Made by a program: the position numbers and the translations under genes. A stretch of DNA of 64,000 bases, taken from an uncultured Prevotellaceae bacterium (GTDB lineage: Bacteria; Bacteroidota; Bacteroidia; Bacteroidales; Bacteroidaceae). This document shows positions 19,843 through 28,159 of the stretch, piece after piece. Numbering within the stretch: the stretch's first letter is position 1; every line of letters starts with the position of its first letter. Below the pieces are notes generated by a model that did not search any database, had not been told where the DNA came from, and was given only the letters and a program-made list of their open reading frames with translations. The stretch lies in assembly GCA_949299545.1 (NCBI GenBank), contig CASGAM010000029.1, forward strand, positions 90,894-154,893, given 5' to 3'.

Positions 19843-19913
19843 TGGGCTATGGTGTAATGGTAACACAACAGATTCTGGTCCTGTTTTTCTTGGTTCGAAT
19901 CCAGGTAGCCCAA
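19843..19913 (+). tRNA. tRNA-Gln (CTG), copy 1
   Basis: 71 nt. Acceptor TGGGCTA / TAGCCCA, D arm GTGT-AATGGTA-ACAC, T arm CTTGG-TTCGAAT-CCAGG, discriminator A, no encoded CCA. The anticodon loop TTCTGGT gives anticodon CTG. The closing pair of the anticodon stem is A-C (ACAGA / CCTGT), so the stem has four good pairs. The same tRNA is repeated 24 bp downstream. Confidence 0.85.
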
Positions 19914-19937
19914 CTCTTTTTTATGATTATTCGTTCT

Positions 19938-20008
19938 TGGGCTATGGTGTAATGGTAACACAACAGATTCTGGTCCTGTTTTTCTTGGTTCGAATCCAGG
20001 TAGCCCAA
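19938..20008 (+). tRNA. tRNA-Gln (CTG), copy 2
   Basis: Identical in sequence to the copy at 19843, including the A-C closing pair in the anticodon stem. It is followed after 7 bp by a terminator hairpin, so both copies form one short transcription unit. Confidence 0.85.
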
Positions 20009-20015
20009 CTTGAAG

Positions 20016-20040: not shown

Positions 20041-20210
20041 GTGAGCGGACGATTGGGGGGTCGTCCGTATACCGGCCGCGGCAATCCATGTCTTGACATG
20101 AATTTGTTGCGGCTTCGCATTTATAAAAAATAGAGTCTGTATTACACGGTTTCGGGATTTTATGTGTATTTTTGTCCTGTCAAATTAATGTCAAACCTAA
20201 TAGTGAGATT

Positions 20211-21296
20211 ATGTTAACCGCTACACGTAGAGAATGGAATGAGTTGTATACTGTGTTCAGATTGTTGGCCGATGGTGAGATTGCTTGCGGTACAGCCGAT
20301 GGAAAAGCATCGTCGCGTGTCTTGCAGATTGCCGCCATCGAGCGTGAGGAACACGACGGTCGCCGCAGCTATATGGTGGACGGCAACGACATACGTGTAG
20401 TCGGACGGGATATGGACGAACGCTATCCGCGTGAAGACTTTGCCACCGTGGCCGGGCTTATTCTGGAAGCATTGCGCGGAGGCGGTGACGAGGTTGAAGC
20501 GCCCGAAGGGGTGGAAGGTTTTCTGGACACGTTGCAGATTCTCGATTTTGAGGCGCAGACAGAAGACCGCACCGACTTTCACATTGTGTTTTTTGACAGA
20601 AACTTTCCGGCGTCCGGCTTCCGCGTCTATTCCCGTCTGTGCGGCATGTGGCCATTGCTGGACGGCGGCCGCACGGCCAACCTGAAATTCGAGCAGACAG
20701 GGGTGCGCTTTTCGCAGCCGGCTGTAAACAACATCAATTATACCGACCGTCCCGACGCTGTCGAAGAAGTGGCGCGCCGCATGCTTTACATTGAGAGCCT
20801 GGGCGGCGTGTTGAAGTACAGCGACGTGGCGGATAAGATATTCAGGAGCAACCTCAGCATGATAGACCTGCACTTCCCGCGCATGTTGGCCGAGATGGTT
20901 CGCCGCTTGCATATCGACAATGTCAGCAAGGTTTCCGACCTGGTAAAACTGGTTGAGGAGAGCAACCCGTTGAAGATAAAGGAAGAGCTGGTTTATAAAC
21001 ATGGCTTCTACCGTTATAAGATGAAAGAGTTCCTGTTGGCACTGGCCTTCGGCATGCGTCCTGCAAAGCAATACGACGGGACGCCCTCGGCCGTTGAAGG
21101 CTTTGTGATGGTCGATGCAGACGGTCGCCTCGTCTGTTACCACAAGTCAGAACGCGAAGTGTTCGGTGATTTCCTTTACAACCACACCCGTTTGGAAAAA
21201 GGACTTCCCGAGAAAGACAAGTATGGCTGTCTGGAACGGGAAAACGGTAAGTATTATTTAAAGCTGAACCTTAAAGTAGGTTTCGCGAAGTTCTGA
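20211..21296 (+). CDS. HpaII-family restriction endonuclease homologue, probably catalytically altered
   Basis: A 361-residue protein, close to the length of HpaII (about 358). Family-like segments run end to end: REWNELYTVFRLLADGEI at the N terminus, TDFHIVFFDR (121-130), GFRVYSRLCG (136-145), YIESLGGVLKYSDV (193-206), KEFLLALAFGMRPAKQYDG (272-290) and KYYLKLNLKVGF at the end. HpaII cuts CCGG. As I recall the family, the PD-(D/E)xK site is a TD in the first strand plus GFSIKS. Here the Asp is kept (D122), but the lysine position reads Tyr140 (GFRVYS). No methyltransferase is adjacent. A TATTTTTG box (20167-20174) supports this ATG over an upstream TTG at 20172 that lies within the box. It may be a domesticated binding protein. 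The family call is fairly firm; loss of activity is inferred. Confidence 0.75.
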   Translation: MLTATRREWNELYTVFRLLADGEIACGTADGKASSRVLQIAAIEREEHDGRRSYMVDGNDIRVVGRDMDERYPREDFATVAGLILEALRGGGDEVEAPEGVEGFLDTLQILDFEAQTEDRTDFHIVFFDRNFPASGFRVYSRLCGMWPLLDGGRTANLKFEQTGVRFSQPAVNNINYTDRPDAVEEVARRMLYIESLGGVLKYSDVADKIFRSNLSMIDLHFPRMLAEMVRRLHIDNVSKVSDLVKLVEESNPLKIKEELVYKHGFYRYKMKEFLLALAFGMRPAKQYDGTPSAVEGFVMVDADGRLVCYHKSEREVFGDFLYNHTRLEKGLPEKDKYGCLERENGKYYLKLNLKVGFAKF

Positions 21297-21475: not shown

Positions 21476-24400
21476 ATGAAAAAGAAGCACTGTTTTTTAT
21501 TGGCCATGGCGTGCCTTCCCTTTACGGCAGCTTTGGCGCAGCGGCAGATGGAAAACCTCGACAGAGGAACGGTGGCTGTCCCGACGGCAGACGGGGTGTA
21601 CGTCGGTTGGCGTATTTTCGGAACGGAGTATTACGACACGCAGTATAACCTCTACCGCGACGGGACGAAAGTGAACGACTCGCCGTTGGACGTTTCCAAT
21701 TATCTGGATAAGGACGGTACGGCGTCTTCTGTCTATACCGTGCGTGCCGTTTCGAAAGGCGTGGAGCAGGAACCCGACGGCCTGTCGGCTGCGGTTTGGG
21801 AACAGCCGTATCTTGCCATCCCCATGGGAAAGGTCTATTCCCGCAGAGGGACGGACATCACGGCCGATTATCAGCTGAACGACGCCTCGGCGGCCGACCT
21901 CGACGGCGACGGGCAGATGGAGTTTATCATCAAACGCATCTATGCCCCCGACGGGCTTTTCGACGTGGCCAACGACAGCGCCTTTTGTATGTTCGAAGCC
22001 TATAAAATGGACGGCACCCGCTTGTGGACGATTGACTGCGGCCCCAACCTCATCAGCTCGGGGCATGTGGAGACCAACCTCGTGGCCTTCGACTGGGACG
22101 GCGACGGCAAGGCGGAACTGCTGATGCGCGCGGCCGACGGAACCATCCTCCATACCCCGGACGGAGACCAGGTGATTGGTGATGCGACGAAAAACTACCG
22201 CAACATGATTTCGCATTCGGCCAACATGACCTATGCCACGGCCGGCGACGAGTTCCTCCTTTATATGGAAGGCGCCACGGCGCGGCTTTACAACCAGCGC
22301 GAGTTCCCCCTGAAACGGCTCGAGAGCGGGGAGACGGATTTGGAGAAAGCCTGGGGCGACGGCTACGGCCACCGTTCCAACAAATTCTTTTTCGGCGCAC
22401 CTTATCTTGACGGCCGGCGGCCGAGCATCTATCTCGGCCGGGGCATTTACACCCGCCATAAGATGATTGCCTATGACGTCAATCCCGATACGCACGAACT
22501 GACCGAACGCTGGCGCTGGGACTGCAATACCGGCGGCCCGTGGTACGGACAGGGCTATCATAATTACGGCATTGCCGATGTGGACTGGGACGGACGCGAC
22601 GAGATCGTCTACGGCTCGATGGTCATTGACGACAATGGGAAAGGACTCTCCACCACCGGCCTGGGACACGGCGACGCACAGCATTGCAGCGACCTCGACC
22701 CGTTCCGCAAAGGACAGGAGATTTTTGCCTGCAACGAGAATGCGCAGGGCGCCAACTACCGTGACGCCACGACCAGCCAGATTTATTACTGGCACTCATA
22801 CGGCCGCGATTGCGGACGCGCCATGGCCGGCAACTTTACCGACAAGTTCTTCGGCAGCCAGATGGTGGCGCCGGGACTGGCGTTGCTGAGTTCCGTCACG
22901 AACGGGGTTGTCGAGCAGTCGTACACCGGCATCGGCATGAATTTCCCCATCTACTGGGACGGCGACCTGTGCCGTGAGTCGTTGGACGGCAACGGAACCG
23001 AAGGCGCCGCCACGGTGTCGAAATACGGCGTGGGCGTCATCTTCTCGGCCGACGGGACAAAGATGAACAACTGGACCAAAAACACGCCGGCGCTGCAGGC
23101 CGATGTCCTGGGCGACTGGCGCGAGGAAATCATTGCGCGCAGCGAGGACAACATGGAACTGCGCATCTATACGACGACCGACGTGACGCCGTGGCGCAAC
23201 TACACGCTCCTGCATGACATGCAGTACCGGCAGGCCGTCATGTGGCAGATGTGCGGCTACAACCAGCCGCCGCATACGAGCTATTTCCTCGGTCGCGCCG
23301 AGGGTATCACCGTGGCGCCGCCACCCGTCATGACAAACGGCAGGGTAGAGGTGACCGACGCCATTACCGACGCGCAGAACGGCTCCCACGTCCTGCTGGC
23401 TGAAACGGCCGGCGGCACGGTGAACGTGTCTGAGGGTGCGGCACCGTATATCCTGACCGTAAACGCCTTTTCACATACGCAGGGGAACGACAACAACGAT
23501 AATATCACCACCGATTATGCGACCTATACGCTGATGGGCGGCGGTTTTGCCGGCAGCATGCGTCTGGTAAAACAGGGCGAGGGCAGACTCGTCTTTGGCG
23601 GCACGCAGAACTACACGGGCGAAACGGCTTTGTGGGGCGGTACGACCGTCTTCAACGGTACGCTCGCTGCCAGCCGTGTGTGGATGAACCGTTTTGCGGA
23701 GCTGGATGCTGCGGGCACGTTCGGAAAAGCCATCGAGCAGTCGTATGGCTCCGTCCTGCGTCCGGGCGGAAAAGATGCGAAAGCGACGCTCCGTGCCGAC
23801 AGCCTGATTCTCGGGTTTGGCGCAATCGTGGAGTTTGACATTTATGGCGACGACCTGTCCGCCGACAATATAGAACTGGACAAGGCTTTGGTGCTTGGTA
23901 AAATCAACGTGCAGAACGGCCCGCAATATCAGGTGCCCGTGTTCCGCTTTACGGCGCATCCGGCTGCCGGGGCTGACGAGGTACCCGACGGCACCTACCG
24001 GCTCATCAAGGCGCCGGCTGTGGAGGGCGATTTGCAGACCGTTGTCATCGAAGGGTTGGAAGGCCGTAAGAAGCACCTCGAAGTGCAGGACGGCTATGTC
24101 TGTCTGGTGATTGACGCCATGCGGTCGGCGGCGACCGTTTATTGGAACGGCGGTGAGAGCAACGGCCTGTGGGACTTTGCGAACACGCTCAATTTCAACA
24201 ATGAAGGCCAACCCGATTTCTTTGTGACGGGCGACAAAGTCATTTTCGACGATGCGGCTGAAGGCCGCAACATCCGCCTGGCGGAAGAACTGATGCCTTC
24301 CGAATTGCTGTTTTCCGGAACGGCCGATTATACGATGAGCGGAACGGGATACATCGCCGGGACGGCAGCGCTCACCAAGCAGGGAACAGGCCAGCTCACC

Positions 24401-26005
24401 ATCAGCAATGTAAACCGTTATACGGGAAAAACGACGTTGGAGGGCGGCACGACGGTTGTGGCTTCCCTGGCCGACGAGATCAACAACTATGGCGCCTTAG
24501 GCGCTTATTCCACTGAGGAAGGACGCATCGAAATCAGGAACGGCGCGGTGCTGAAGAATACGGTGAACGTCACCAATGCCGTACCGATTACGGTCGGCGA
24601 AGGCGGCGCGGAACTCAACTGTGGCGCCCAGTTCGAGATGAAGGGCGCGTTCAAGGGCGGCACGTTGGTCAAGTCCGGTACCGGGACACTCGTCATGAGT
24701 GGGCAGAACAGCCTGAAGTCGACCGTCCTCAAGGCCGGCGCCATCAGGGCGTCCGTCGACGGGGTCAGCTTCGGCGACACGCTGATTTTCGAGGGCGGCA
24801 CATACTACGACTGTGACAACATTCATTCCTATAGCGGCAATGCGAACAACTTCTGCGTGAGAAAACGCAAGACCGGAACGTTCAGCGCCGACGCGCGCTG
24901 TAATTATACCGGCCGGCTGTATGGCGAAGGCACCTTCAAGGTGGATATCCACAATGTCCGTACCTATTTGCAAGGCAACTGGTCGGCGTTTGAAGGAACG
25001 GTGGAGCCGGTCAATGCCACTTACGGCCTGACGCTCGACAATGCTTACGGGTTGCCGAAAGCATCGCTCGACCTGTCATCCGGTTGTCCGGTGACGAATA
25101 CGGGCAAATCGTTCACCATCGGTGAGGTGACCGGCAGCGGAAGCCTCGGAGAATATCCCCCGTTTGGCGGCAGCGGTTCCAATACCTGGATTGTCGGCTC
25201 GTTGGGGACGGATTTCAGTTTCTCCGGAACGATAACGGGAGCGGCTACAGTCTTCAAAAAGGTCGGTGCGGGCAAGATGTCTGTCAGCGGCTACAGCACG
25301 TTTGGCGGCGCCTGCACGGTCGAGGAAGGCACGTTGCAGATCAACAGGTCCAATGCCGCAGCTGCCATGCTCGGAACGGGCGTTTTGACGGTAGAGTCGG
25401 GCGCCATGCTGGTCGGACAGGGCAAACTGGGCAACTCGTCCGTCAGCATTGCAAAAGGGGCGACGTTGCGTCCCGGCAGTTCGGAAACGTCCATCATCGG
25501 TACGATAGATTTCAGCGACAAGAATGTCACGGTGCAGACCGGGGCGACACTCCAGTTCTATGTCAACAGCAAGACCACCCATACGGAACTGACCGGCATC
25601 AACCTGCTGAACCTGCGGGGAACGCTGAAGGTGCTTACCCGTGAAGGGCTGCAACTTGCGGCCGGCGACGAGATCCGGCTTTGGGAAGCCGACAGGACCA
25701 CCTTGTCCGCCAATCTGGTGCTGGAACTTTCCTCACCCGGAACAGGGCTGGAGTGGGACACCACGTCCTTGTCCGAAGGCATCCTGCGGGTGCAGATTGC
25801 GACCGGCGTCAGCGACGTGCAGGCCGACAGTCCTGTGAAATGTGAAATATTCCGTCTCGACGGCACGTCAGCCGGTGTGCTTTATGCAGCGCCGGCCGCT
25901 TTGCCGGTAAAGATGCGCGCGGCCGGTTATAAGCCCGATACCTATGTGGTGAGTTATTACCTATCCGACGGCGTGATGACGGACAAACTGCTGATTGAAA
26001 AATAA
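21476..26005 (+). CDS. Secreted PL11 rhamnogalacturonan lyase with autotransporter-type repeats
   Basis: A 1509-residue exported protein. Signal peptide about 1-21 (cleavage near ALAQ). The PL11 catalytic beta-propeller spans about 22-625, with calcium-type loops DLDGDGQMEF, DWDGDGKAELLMR and DVDWDGRDEIVYGS, then GHGDAQHCSDLDP, ADVLGDWREEI and YRQAVMWQMCGYNQPPHTSY. It cleaves the rhamnose-galacturonate backbone of pectin by beta-elimination. Autotransporter-associated beta-strand repeats follow near 687, 965, 1062 and 1260 (for example LVKSGTGTLVMSGQNSLKS). The last 55 residues (CEIFRLDGTSAG ... TDKLLIEK) look like a type IX secretion sorting domain. The gene is visibly richer in G+C than both flanks. 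No SusC/SusD or other pectin gene is adjacent. An in-frame ATG at 21422 precedes the signal peptide and is not used. Confidence 0.85.
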   Translation: MKKKHCFLLAMACLPFTAALAQRQMENLDRGTVAVPTADGVYVGWRIFGTEYYDTQYNLYRDGTKVNDSPLDVSNYLDKDGTASSVYTVRAVSKGVEQEPDGLSAAVWEQPYLAIPMGKVYSRRGTDITADYQLNDASAADLDGDGQMEFIIKRIYAPDGLFDVANDSAFCMFEAYKMDGTRLWTIDCGPNLISSGHVETNLVAFDWDGDGKAELLMRAADGTILHTPDGDQVIGDATKNYRNMISHSANMTYATAGDEFLLYMEGATARLYNQREFPLKRLESGETDLEKAWGDGYGHRSNKFFFGAPYLDGRRPSIYLGRGIYTRHKMIAYDVNPDTHELTERWRWDCNTGGPWYGQGYHNYGIADVDWDGRDEIVYGSMVIDDNGKGLSTTGLGHGDAQHCSDLDPFRKGQEIFACNENAQGANYRDATTSQIYYWHSYGRDCGRAMAGNFTDKFFGSQMVAPGLALLSSVTNGVVEQSYTGIGMNFPIYWDGDLCRESLDGNGTEGAATVSKYGVGVIFSADGTKMNNWTKNTPALQADVLGDWREEIIARSEDNMELRIYTTTDVTPWRNYTLLHDMQYRQAVMWQMCGYNQPPHTSYFLGRAEGITVAPPPVMTNGRVEVTDAITDAQNGSHVLLAETAGGTVNVSEGAAPYILTVNAFSHTQGNDNNDNITTDYATYTLMGGGFAGSMRLVKQGEGRLVFGGTQNYTGETALWGGTTVFNGTLAASRVWMNRFAELDAAGTFGKAIEQSYGSVLRPGGKDAKATLRADSLILGFGAIVEFDIYGDDLSADNIELDKALVLGKINVQNGPQYQVPVFRFTAHPAAGADEVPDGTYRLIKAPAVEGDLQTVVIEGLEGRKKHLEVQDGYVCLVIDAMRSAATVYWNGGESNGLWDFANTLNFNNEGQPDFFVTGDKVIFDDAAEGRNIRLAEELMPSELLFSGTADYTMSGTGYIAGTAALTKQGTGQLTISNVNRYTGKTTLEGGTTVVASLADEINNYGALGAYSTEEGRIEIRNGAVLKNTVNVTNAVPITVGEGGAELNCGAQFEMKGAFKGGTLVKSGTGTLVMSGQNSLKSTVLKAGAIRASVDGVSFGDTLIFEGGTYYDCDNIHSYSGNANNFCVRKRKTGTFSADARCNYTGRLYGEGTFKVDIHNVRTYLQGNWSAFEGTVEPVNATYGLTLDNAYGLPKASLDLSSGCPVTNTGKSFTIGEVTGSGSLGEYPPFGGSGSNTWIVGSLGTDFSFSGTITGAATVFKKVGAGKMSVSGYSTFGGACTVEEGTLQINRSNAAAAMLGTGVLTVESGAMLVGQGKLGNSSVSIAKGATLRPGSSETSIIGTIDFSDKNVTVQTGATLQFYVNSKTTHTELTGINLLNLRGTLKVLTREGLQLAAGDEIRLWEADRTTLSANLVLELSSPGTGLEWDTTSLSEGILRVQIATGVSDVQADSPVKCEIFRLDGTSAGVLYAAPAALPVKMRAAGYKPDTYVVSYYLSDGVMTDKLLIEK

Positions 26006-26786: not shown

Positions 26787-28159
26787 ATGACAGAGACCAA
26801 CCGCATAGAGTATAAAAGAGAATTAACTCCTGAGCTTGATATAGAAAAGGAGATTGTTGCGTTCCTCAATTACAAGGAAGGTGGATACATTTACATCGGC
26901 ATTGATAAAGATGGTTCAACCGTGGGAGTAAAGGATGTAGATGATTGTATGCTAAGGTTGAAAGATCGCATCAAACATAATATATCCCCTTCCGCAATGG
27001 GGCTGTTTGATATAGCAGAGGAACAAAAAGACGGATGTAGCATTATCAAGATTACGGTGGCAAGTGGTATTGAGAAACCATATTTCAAAATAAAATATGG
27101 AATGACACCGCGAGGTGCGTATATGCGTGTTGGAACATCGGCTGAGCCCATGCCTCAAGAACAGATTGACCGTCTATTTGCCATGCGGACACGTAACTCT
27201 ATTGGACGCATAGTATCTAACCGACAGGATTTGAGTTTTGAGCAGTTACGTATCTATTACGACGAACGGGGTAAAAGGCTCAACGATAATTTTAAACGGA
27301 CATTGGAATTGCTCACTGAAGATGGAAAATAAATTATGTAGCTTATCTTCTGGCTGATGAAAATGGTAATTCAATCAAAGTGGCCAAGTATTCAAGCCTT
27401 GACCGTTGTGATTTGATAGAGAATAATGAGTATGGATATTGTTCTCTCATTAAAGCAACCAAGAGCGTGTTGGCCAAATTGGATATTGAAAATAAGGTTG
27501 CTGCTGCTATTACACCTATGGAACGCATTGAAACCCCATTGTGGAATAAGGTCGCTTTGCGAGAAGCCGTTATTAATGCAATCGTGCATAATGATTATTC
27601 ATTTGAGGTGCCGCCTAAATTCGAGATATTTCCAGATAGACTTGAGATAACCTCAGCAGGGCGTTTGCCAGAGTCTCTTTCAGAAGAGGAGTTTTTTAAT
27701 GGTATATCTATTCCACGCAACAAGGAGTTAATGAGAATTTATCGTGACGTGGAGTTGGTTGAGTCGTTAGGTTCAGGTATTCCTCGCATTCTGAGAGCAT
27801 ACGGTGAAGATTGTTTCAAGTTTACTGATAATTTTATTCGTATAACTTTTCCTAAAAGTATTTATAACCATGCAAGTGACCATGCAAGTGACCATGCAAG
27901 TGACCATGCAAGTGACCATGCAAGTTTACAAGTTAAAAAATTGGTTTCTGTTTTAGTCGAAGAGAAAGGACGTTCGGAATTACAGGAATTGTTATCAATT
28001 AAGAATAGGGATTATTTTAGGACGGACTATTTAGCTCCGGCAATTAATGATGGTTATGTAGAACTAACTATACCGGATAAGCCCAATAGTCAGAATCAAA
28101 AATATCGCCTTACAGTAAAAGGTTTGGCTTTGAAGGAGACATTAAAACGTAAGGAGTAG
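26787..28159 (+). pseudogene. AlbA_2 (Schlafen-type) / GHKL-like ATPase regulator gene with one frameshift
   Basis: Two frames together encode one RecG-like or transcriptional-regulator-type protein of about 457 residues. Frame 1 (26787-27332) carries the AlbA_2 domain: RIEYKRELTPELDIEKEIVA, GGYIYIGIDKDGSTVGV, PRGAYMRVGTSAEPM. It stops at TAA (27330-27332) within GGA-AAA-TAA. The -1 frame continues directly as INYVAYLLADENGNSIKVA. It carries the ATPase-like half (ALREAVINAIVHNDYS with an N-box Asn, ELVESLGSGIPRI with a glycine box), a HASD tandem repeat and a C-terminal winged-helix-like segment (YRLTVKGLALKE). A missing T in 'TATAAT' would explain it. A true pseudogene, a sequencing error, or slippage on A-AAA before TAA are all possible. 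Codon use is A+T-rich relative to neighbours, which suggests transfer. Confidence 0.75.
27869..27925 (+). repeat. 12-nt in-frame tandem repeat
   Basis: Four exact copies of CATGCAAGTGAC plus a 9-nt partial copy, encoding HASD-HASD-HASD-HASD-HAS between the ATPase-like and winged-helix parts. The unit length keeps the frame, so copy-number change would alter linker length only. Confidence 0.9.

Follow-up and report, generated by a model that had tools for sequence, protein, structure and literature searches.

The closest described relatives of the protein studied here are the canonical R.HpaII restriction endonucleases and a set of HpaII-like proteins from Bacteroides. In the passages of Ershova et al. 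(2012, PMC3488263) that deal with the latter, 11 mutually similar HpaII-like proteins are described in Bacteroides, six of them without a candidate methylase. One of these, BthVORF1149P, is given there as listed in REBASE as without activity, and the authors suggested a changed function for the solitary proteins. The idea of a changed function in solitary members of this family is therefore not new, as these passages already raise it. In PMC8099122, both the mitochondrial HpaII protein of a katablepharid and its methyltransferase are reported as active. A literature search, with most subscription journals and bioRxiv preprints outside its coverage, gave Ershova et al. as the one directly relevant paper and found no later study of solitary HpaII-like proteins, and a search on ‘BT1149’ found no functional paper.

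Here we describe a solitary HpaII-family gene in a stretch of 64,000 nucleotides, referred to as the window, and the clade to which it belongs, called s1 in the following. Very probably, s1 and the solitary Bacteroides proteins in those passages of Ershova et al. are the same group.

Family membership and genomic context

The gene occupies positions 20211..21296 on the forward strand, with an ATG at 20211 and a stop codon ending at 21296, and encodes 361 amino acids. An earlier note on this DNA had described a resemblance to the HpaII family over the whole length of the protein, and the HMM search bears this out: the Pfam RE_HpaII profile (PF09561) matches with an E-value of 1e-126 and 423.5 bits against a cut-off of 25, covering profile positions 1-359 of 359. 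A chance resemblance is ruled out by this E-value. Additionally, the PADLOC model REase_II matches the protein (8.1e-43). There were no matches in NCBIfam, and a PDB sequence search found no relative, the sole match having an E-value of 0.28.

Upstream, two identical tRNA-Gln(CTG) genes lie 23 bases apart on the forward strand (19843-19914 and 19938-20009), and RsfS and FtsH are encoded beyond them on the opposite strand. The element TATTTTTGT at 20167..20175 (+) ends 35 bases before the start codon; by eye it resembles the Bacteroidales -7 promoter box TAnnTTTG, and we take it to be a candidate. On the 3' side, the next gene (21476-26005, +) encodes a 1509-amino acid rhamnogalacturonan lyase family 11 protein. 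The twin tRNA genes named in the earlier note are thus in place, and its ‘pectin lyase’ is this family 11 enzyme rather than a pectin lyase in the narrow sense. The lyase also carries three PATR (passenger-associated-transport) repeats, an odd pairing, and is followed by a gene for a Schlafen/AlbA_2 domain protein (26787-27329, +).

A solitary clade within the HpaII family

The loci that were fetched are a subset of the matches from 399 sampled family genomes. The main alignment held 154 rows (121 s1, 25 canonical and 8 of a further group, s2). Enlarged by 80 further stretches, with places shorter than 850 bases left out and proteins identical over their last 300 residues merged, the census came to 206 distinct family members: 151 s1, 47 canonical and 8 s2. 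Members of s1 occur in Paraprevotella, Bacteroides, Phocaeicola and others.

A ‘quick’ tree without bootstrap and with a midpoint root was calculated from 93 of the 154 rows, taking 25 of the 86 mid-identity rows at random and all other rows. The canonical proteins were split from the solitary ones with an SH-aLRT value of 100, and s1 and s2 each obtained 99. Canonical proteins of many families intermingle on the tree, as expected of mobile genes. Members of s1 group largely by genus; departures occur in places, because the rows of one set, g11 (L060, L225 and L227), nest among Paraprevotella rows. The fewest changes on the tree are three for the Lys at position 140 and four for the Asp at position 122 (window protein numbering), counted on a tree whose alignment included these scored columns. 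Beyond the order, all five intact relatives sampled are canonical, with a methyltransferase adjacent; two that were broken or below the cut-off were set aside.

The solitary clade is also marked by residues of its own. R154, P170, K255 and E342 are present in 121/121 s1 and 8/8 s2 rows, and K159, K202, E259 and K263 in nearly all of them; each of these eight residues occurs in 0 to 6 of the 25 canonical rows. In the window, the segment R154 to K159 (‘RTANLK’) is encoded at 20670..20687 (+); R154 is seen in one of the 25 canonical rows, and K159 in 121 s1, 7 s2 and no canonical rows. Common to nearly the whole family is a polar core of R45, N157, N176, N214, D219, Y267, K270 and N353.

In 7/8 loci of s2 (which includes L061, L062 and L210-L214), from two families, the next gene downstream on the same strand is rnhB; Pfam RNase_HII was found in 7/7 of the rnhB genes tested. 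This group is possibly an intermediate, still living, between the active enzyme and a non-restriction protein.

Loss of the catalytic residues

A profile alignment (hhalign) of 45 relatives of the window protein against 10 canonical HpaII proteins gave a probability of 100 and an E-value of 7.5e-69. In this alignment RTD122 pairs with KTD125, and GF-R138-V-Y140-S pairs with GF-S144-I-K146-S. The active site given in the earlier note, a TD followed by GFSIKS with Tyr replacing Lys in the window protein, is thereby confirmed. An active HpaII-type endonuclease has the Asp together with S-x-K; the window protein keeps D122 (GAC, 20574..20576, +), the Asp left over from the former active site, and reads R138-V139-Y140 (CGC GTC TAT, 20622..20630, +) where the canonical proteins have S-I-K.

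In the census, Lys at position 140 was found in 0/151 s1 proteins, in 46/47 canonical proteins (the remaining row being a gap) and in 5/8 s2 proteins. The s1 proteins have R (100), Y (31), Q (11), L (3), F (2), H (2), C (1) or W (1) instead. A single-genome mutation or a sequencing error behind Y140 is ruled out, as Lys is absent across all 151 s1 sequences. A survey of orthologues had been proposed with a conserved Tyr and a missing methylase in mind: Lys and a neighbouring methylase are indeed absent throughout s1, and Tyr is one state among several (31/151). In the 154-row alignment, Ser at position 138 is found in 25/25 canonical and 11/121 s1 rows.

The equivalent of D122 is present in 25/25 canonical and 113/121 s1 rows of the same alignment, and in 142/151 s1 proteins of the census. 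Among the 113 s1 rows with D122, 86 columns are at least 97% conserved, and this set was used to describe the eight s1 rows that have lost the Asp. L033 retains 85/86 of these columns, D122 itself being the sole one missing; such a pattern is as expected if cleavage no longer matters while the remainder of the protein does. L143 keeps 83/86 columns and the rest keep 63-75, and in L219-L221 the entire DRTD stretch has been lost.

The AlphaFold2 model of the window protein shows a confident full fold (mean pLDDT 93.5, pTM 0.91), and that of a canonical protein is fair (mean pLDDT 85.8). The order of the predicted elements is identical in both, with Lys-146 and Tyr-140 placed close to the end of equivalent strands. 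A Foldseek comparison with the PDB returned no match at an E-value of 0.001 or better for either model.

Missing methyltransferase and CCGG sites

A C5 methyltransferase lies within 1.5 kb of 45/47 canonical genes, of 0/151 s1 genes (12 of these being flanked on one side by less than 1 kb of sequence) and of 0/8 s2 genes; in three of the canonical cases PF00145 was confirmed by Pfam. The claim in the earlier note that no methyltransferase lies near the gene holds, at this distance, for the whole of s1. The two canonical exceptions, L222 (G731) and L223 (G657), keep the Lys and have a shortened N-terminus. HNH_2 and Vsr genes lie upstream of L222 on the same strand (Vsr confirmed by Pfam), and L222 and L223 may be decaying systems. 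In one further genome (G057), apparent remnants of a canonical HpaII system occur within about 5 kb of an s1 gene (L063), namely Vsr, a methylase fragment 3.8 kb away and a truncated endonuclease.

The host genome was searched as well, as had been suggested. A type II restriction-modification system has its cognate C5 methyltransferase adjacent or elsewhere in the genome. The window's own assembly, 79% complete and hence possibly short of about one fifth of the genome, yielded none; for PF01555 there was one match, below its cut-off. At an E-value of 0.001, no C5 methyltransferase match was obtained in 13/37 s1 genomes tested (the window's own included) or in 5/8 s2 genomes. The s1 genomes concerned include four single-contig ones (G026, G610, G679 and G722). 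The other 24/37 s1 genomes have some C5 methyltransferase match elsewhere, the best being 45% identical over about 405 residues (G001). That s1 reads 5-methyl-CCGG made by the cell itself is a poor fit, since 13/37 s1 genomes have no such match. Four of the s2 proteins with Lys come from genomes without a C5 methyltransferase match. A solitary life alone does not prove inactivity, because 5/8 s2 proteins keep the Lys without a neighbouring methyltransferase.

Avoidance of the target site is a common, though not strict, trait of type II restriction-modification systems. In the window, 395 CCGG sites were counted against 377 expected from trinucleotides; the site is not avoided. Within s1 genes, CCGG likewise showed no avoidance, at 3.5 per kb compared to 3.2 per kb expected from the G+C content alone. 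Autoregulation through CCGG was considered and rejected, as the sites are not enriched upstream of s1 genes (69 against 65 expected in 120 upstream regions). As a separate observation, GATC is strongly depleted in the window (63 observed, 174 expected), which may reflect a history of GATC restriction.

Selection and distribution

The median dN/dS of s1 was 0.05 over 86 pairs, by a simple Nei-Gojobori estimate with high dS values (median 1.27). In matched pairs, s1 equalled RsmG (0.044) and nitroreductase (0.058). It lay above YigZ, the SerA-like protein, GcvP, the DUF1015 protein, SerC and FabD (e.g. 0.060 versus 0.044 for YigZ and 0.100 versus 0.038 for FabD) and below ThiD/PdxK (0.105 versus 0.151, 6 pairs). 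Overall, the constraint on s1 is comparable to that on nine adjacent genes, with dN/dS mostly somewhat above theirs, 6/9 neighbours being more constrained. The names YigZ, nitroreductase, SerC, GcvP, RsmG and DUF1015 come from the annotation of one Bacteroides locus; SerA-like, FabD, ThiD/PdxK, Maf and glycosidase were assigned by eye. A length of 356 amino acids or more is kept in 119/121 s1 rows. Thus s1 has given up the catalytic Lys while purifying selection maintains the remainder of the protein, as in a domesticated pseudo-enzyme, and the suggestion of a conserved role beyond the usual active site is supported.

The neighbours recur within genera: YigZ and nitroreductase in Bacteroides, and glycosidase and FabD, or a Maf-containing block, in others. 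They differ among genera, with no one partner common to all s1 genes. Of 98 loci taken together (91 s1, 7 s2), 24 have YigZ as the immediate upstream neighbour and 27 have nitroreductase as the immediate downstream one. The s1 gene was found in 16/17 other genomes of the window's genus, and matches to the family, s1 or canonical, in 148/399 sampled family genomes. Broken s1 copies were seen in G015 (L025, an in-frame TAG) and in L241 (two pieces). The gene is not essential everywhere, because of these broken copies and of the presence in 148/399 genomes.

A phage origin was also considered and rejected, as a scan of viral_contigs confirmed no relative. A phage collection gave six short unannotated faecal records; three are s1-like by identity (54-58%) and are perhaps chromosomal fragments. 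Two of seven plasmid records are s1-like. The one from B. finegoldii is perhaps a mislabelled chromosomal piece, because its gene is surrounded by serC, gcvP and rsmG, the setting seen in Bacteroides chromosomes.

Discussion

The reading we lean towards, with some confidence, is that s1 is a domesticated, cleavage-dead protein with the HpaII fold, most likely a chromosomal protein that binds DNA or a DNA/RNA substrate. A job other than restriction is probable, because s1 shows near-housekeeping conservation despite the loss of the cutting residue and the methylase. Judged from the sequences, cleavage appears to have been lost. Binding of nucleic acid is suggested, less strongly, by the fold, by the polar core common to the family and by the basic residues newly fixed, and a particular sequence specificity and cellular role may be supposed with similar reserve. 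Against this reading, D122 is still Asp in more s1 proteins than a wholly unused residue might be.

The following course of events would fit. The ancestor of the Bacteroidales solitary clade may have lost the adjacent C5 methyltransferase and would have fixed ten residues, five of them basic (R154, K159, K202, K255 and K263) and five others (P170, G199, E259, E342 and N345). The catalytic residues would then have eroded in several lineages, the loss of the Lys becoming complete in Bacteroidaceae s1. The whole fold and the polar core are kept, the protein is under strong purifying selection and its gene stays at stable chromosomal places within genera; as a chromosomal protein it would now bind nucleic acid and leave it uncut. 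On the midpoint-rooted tree, the likely order is that the methylase was lost and the new residues were fixed before the cleavage residues went, because the new residues are already present in s2 members that still have the old Lys.

Several other explanations were weighed. The window protein could be a rewired nuclease in which K159, on the predicted strand that follows (N157-x-K159-x-E161), has taken over as catalytic Lys; a Lys from another segment is what the earlier note had named as a refutation of its reading. Such an enzyme would still cut, perhaps modified foreign DNA alone in a type IV-like manner, accounting for the missing methylase. Migration of the Lys is known among PD-(D/E)xK enzymes, and K159 is fixed in 151/151 s1 and 7/8 s2 proteins of the census and found in 0/47 canonical ones, which have N, I, R, T, V, L, C or a gap there. 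The new and the old Lys stand together in 4/8 s2 proteins, the order expected of a hand-over, and D122 is mostly kept. However, nine of the 151 s1 proteins have K159 without D122, three proteins (L219-L221) are without the whole DRTD stretch, E161 is replaced in 3/121 s1 rows, and for a modification-dependent (type IV) enzyme the window protein has no complete recognised active site, so that we regard rewiring as rather unlikely. A role outside DNA, with the fold recruited for an RNA or protein partner, would agree with the acidic pI of s1 and with the place of s2 upstream of rnhB, a hint at RNA/DNA-hybrid metabolism. Yet among the 98 loci all six occurrences of the rnhB cluster as direct downstream neighbour belong to s2, none to s1, and the s1 genera share no partner, making such a role quite improbable.

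The full-length fold without its Lys could also serve as a decoy or modulator of HpaII restriction, i.e. as a dead subunit forming mixed dimers, or competing, with an active plasmid- or rival-borne HpaII. Canonical HpaII genes with their methylase are found on plasmids, and s1 and canonical proteins occur together in G670 (L246, L247), G524 (L250, L251), G706 (L252, L117) and G024 (L054, L059). Such coexistence is nevertheless exceptional (among the matches listed, two per genome occur in G024, G057 and G080 only), the s1 neighbours look like housekeeping genes (by annotation for one Bacteroides and by eye for others), and no viral relative was confirmed; we find this explanation decidedly doubtful. 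That s1 is a functionless, decaying remnant of a restriction-modification system could be read from the missing catalytic residues and the few broken copies, but is contradicted by the median dN/dS, by the nearly constant length, by the 86 highly conserved columns and by the gene's presence throughout almost all of the window's genus. We give it hardly any credence.

A more specific form of the domesticated, non-cutting protein can be put forward tentatively, as short of an even chance: a selfish restriction enzyme would have become, in Bacteroidaceae, a conserved protein that binds chromosomal DNA at specific sequences and does not cut it, the methylase being lost first, new basic contacts gained next and the cleavage residues lost last, more than once. 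If true, major human gut genera would possess a regulator or a genome-organising protein derived from the fold of a type II restriction enzyme. The acidic pI of s1 proteins (median 5.7, against 6.4 for canonical ones) would be unusual for an abundant nucleoid protein; the patchy presence among the sampled family genomes and the broken copies (L025, L241) speak against a simple nucleoid role as well.

The database label of these proteins is ‘HpaII family restriction endonuclease’, and the PADLOC model assigns a type II restriction enzyme. With these labels, a non-cutting enzyme is probably being counted in defence surveys of Bacteroides, Phocaeicola and Paraprevotella. What is new here is the definition of the clade, the census of the active site, the selection test, the shared derived residues, the inferred order of losses and the s2 group. 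Active-site loss, a clade of their own, selection and the s2 sister group do not come up in the passages of Ershova et al. (PMC3488263) on the solitary proteins.

The wider comparison is with restriction enzymes of described fold. Enzymes of the HinP1I / MspI type have a PD-(D/E)xK fold with a D...(Q/N)xK arrangement. HinP1I (1ynm) was the top, weak match of the canonical model (Foldseek E-value 0.055, probability 0.25) and is absent from the 50 listed matches of the s1 model. Much closer are the canonical R.HpaII proteins themselves (PF09561), which s1 resembles in homology over the whole length, in the order of predicted secondary structure and in the polar core. It differs from them in having neither the catalytic Lys and the S-x-K nor an adjacent C5 methyltransferase, in carrying clade-specific residues, and in a tree that follows genera to a large extent where that of the canonical proteins mixes many families. 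As a whole, s1 offers a traceable case of a restriction enzyme turned conserved non-restriction protein.
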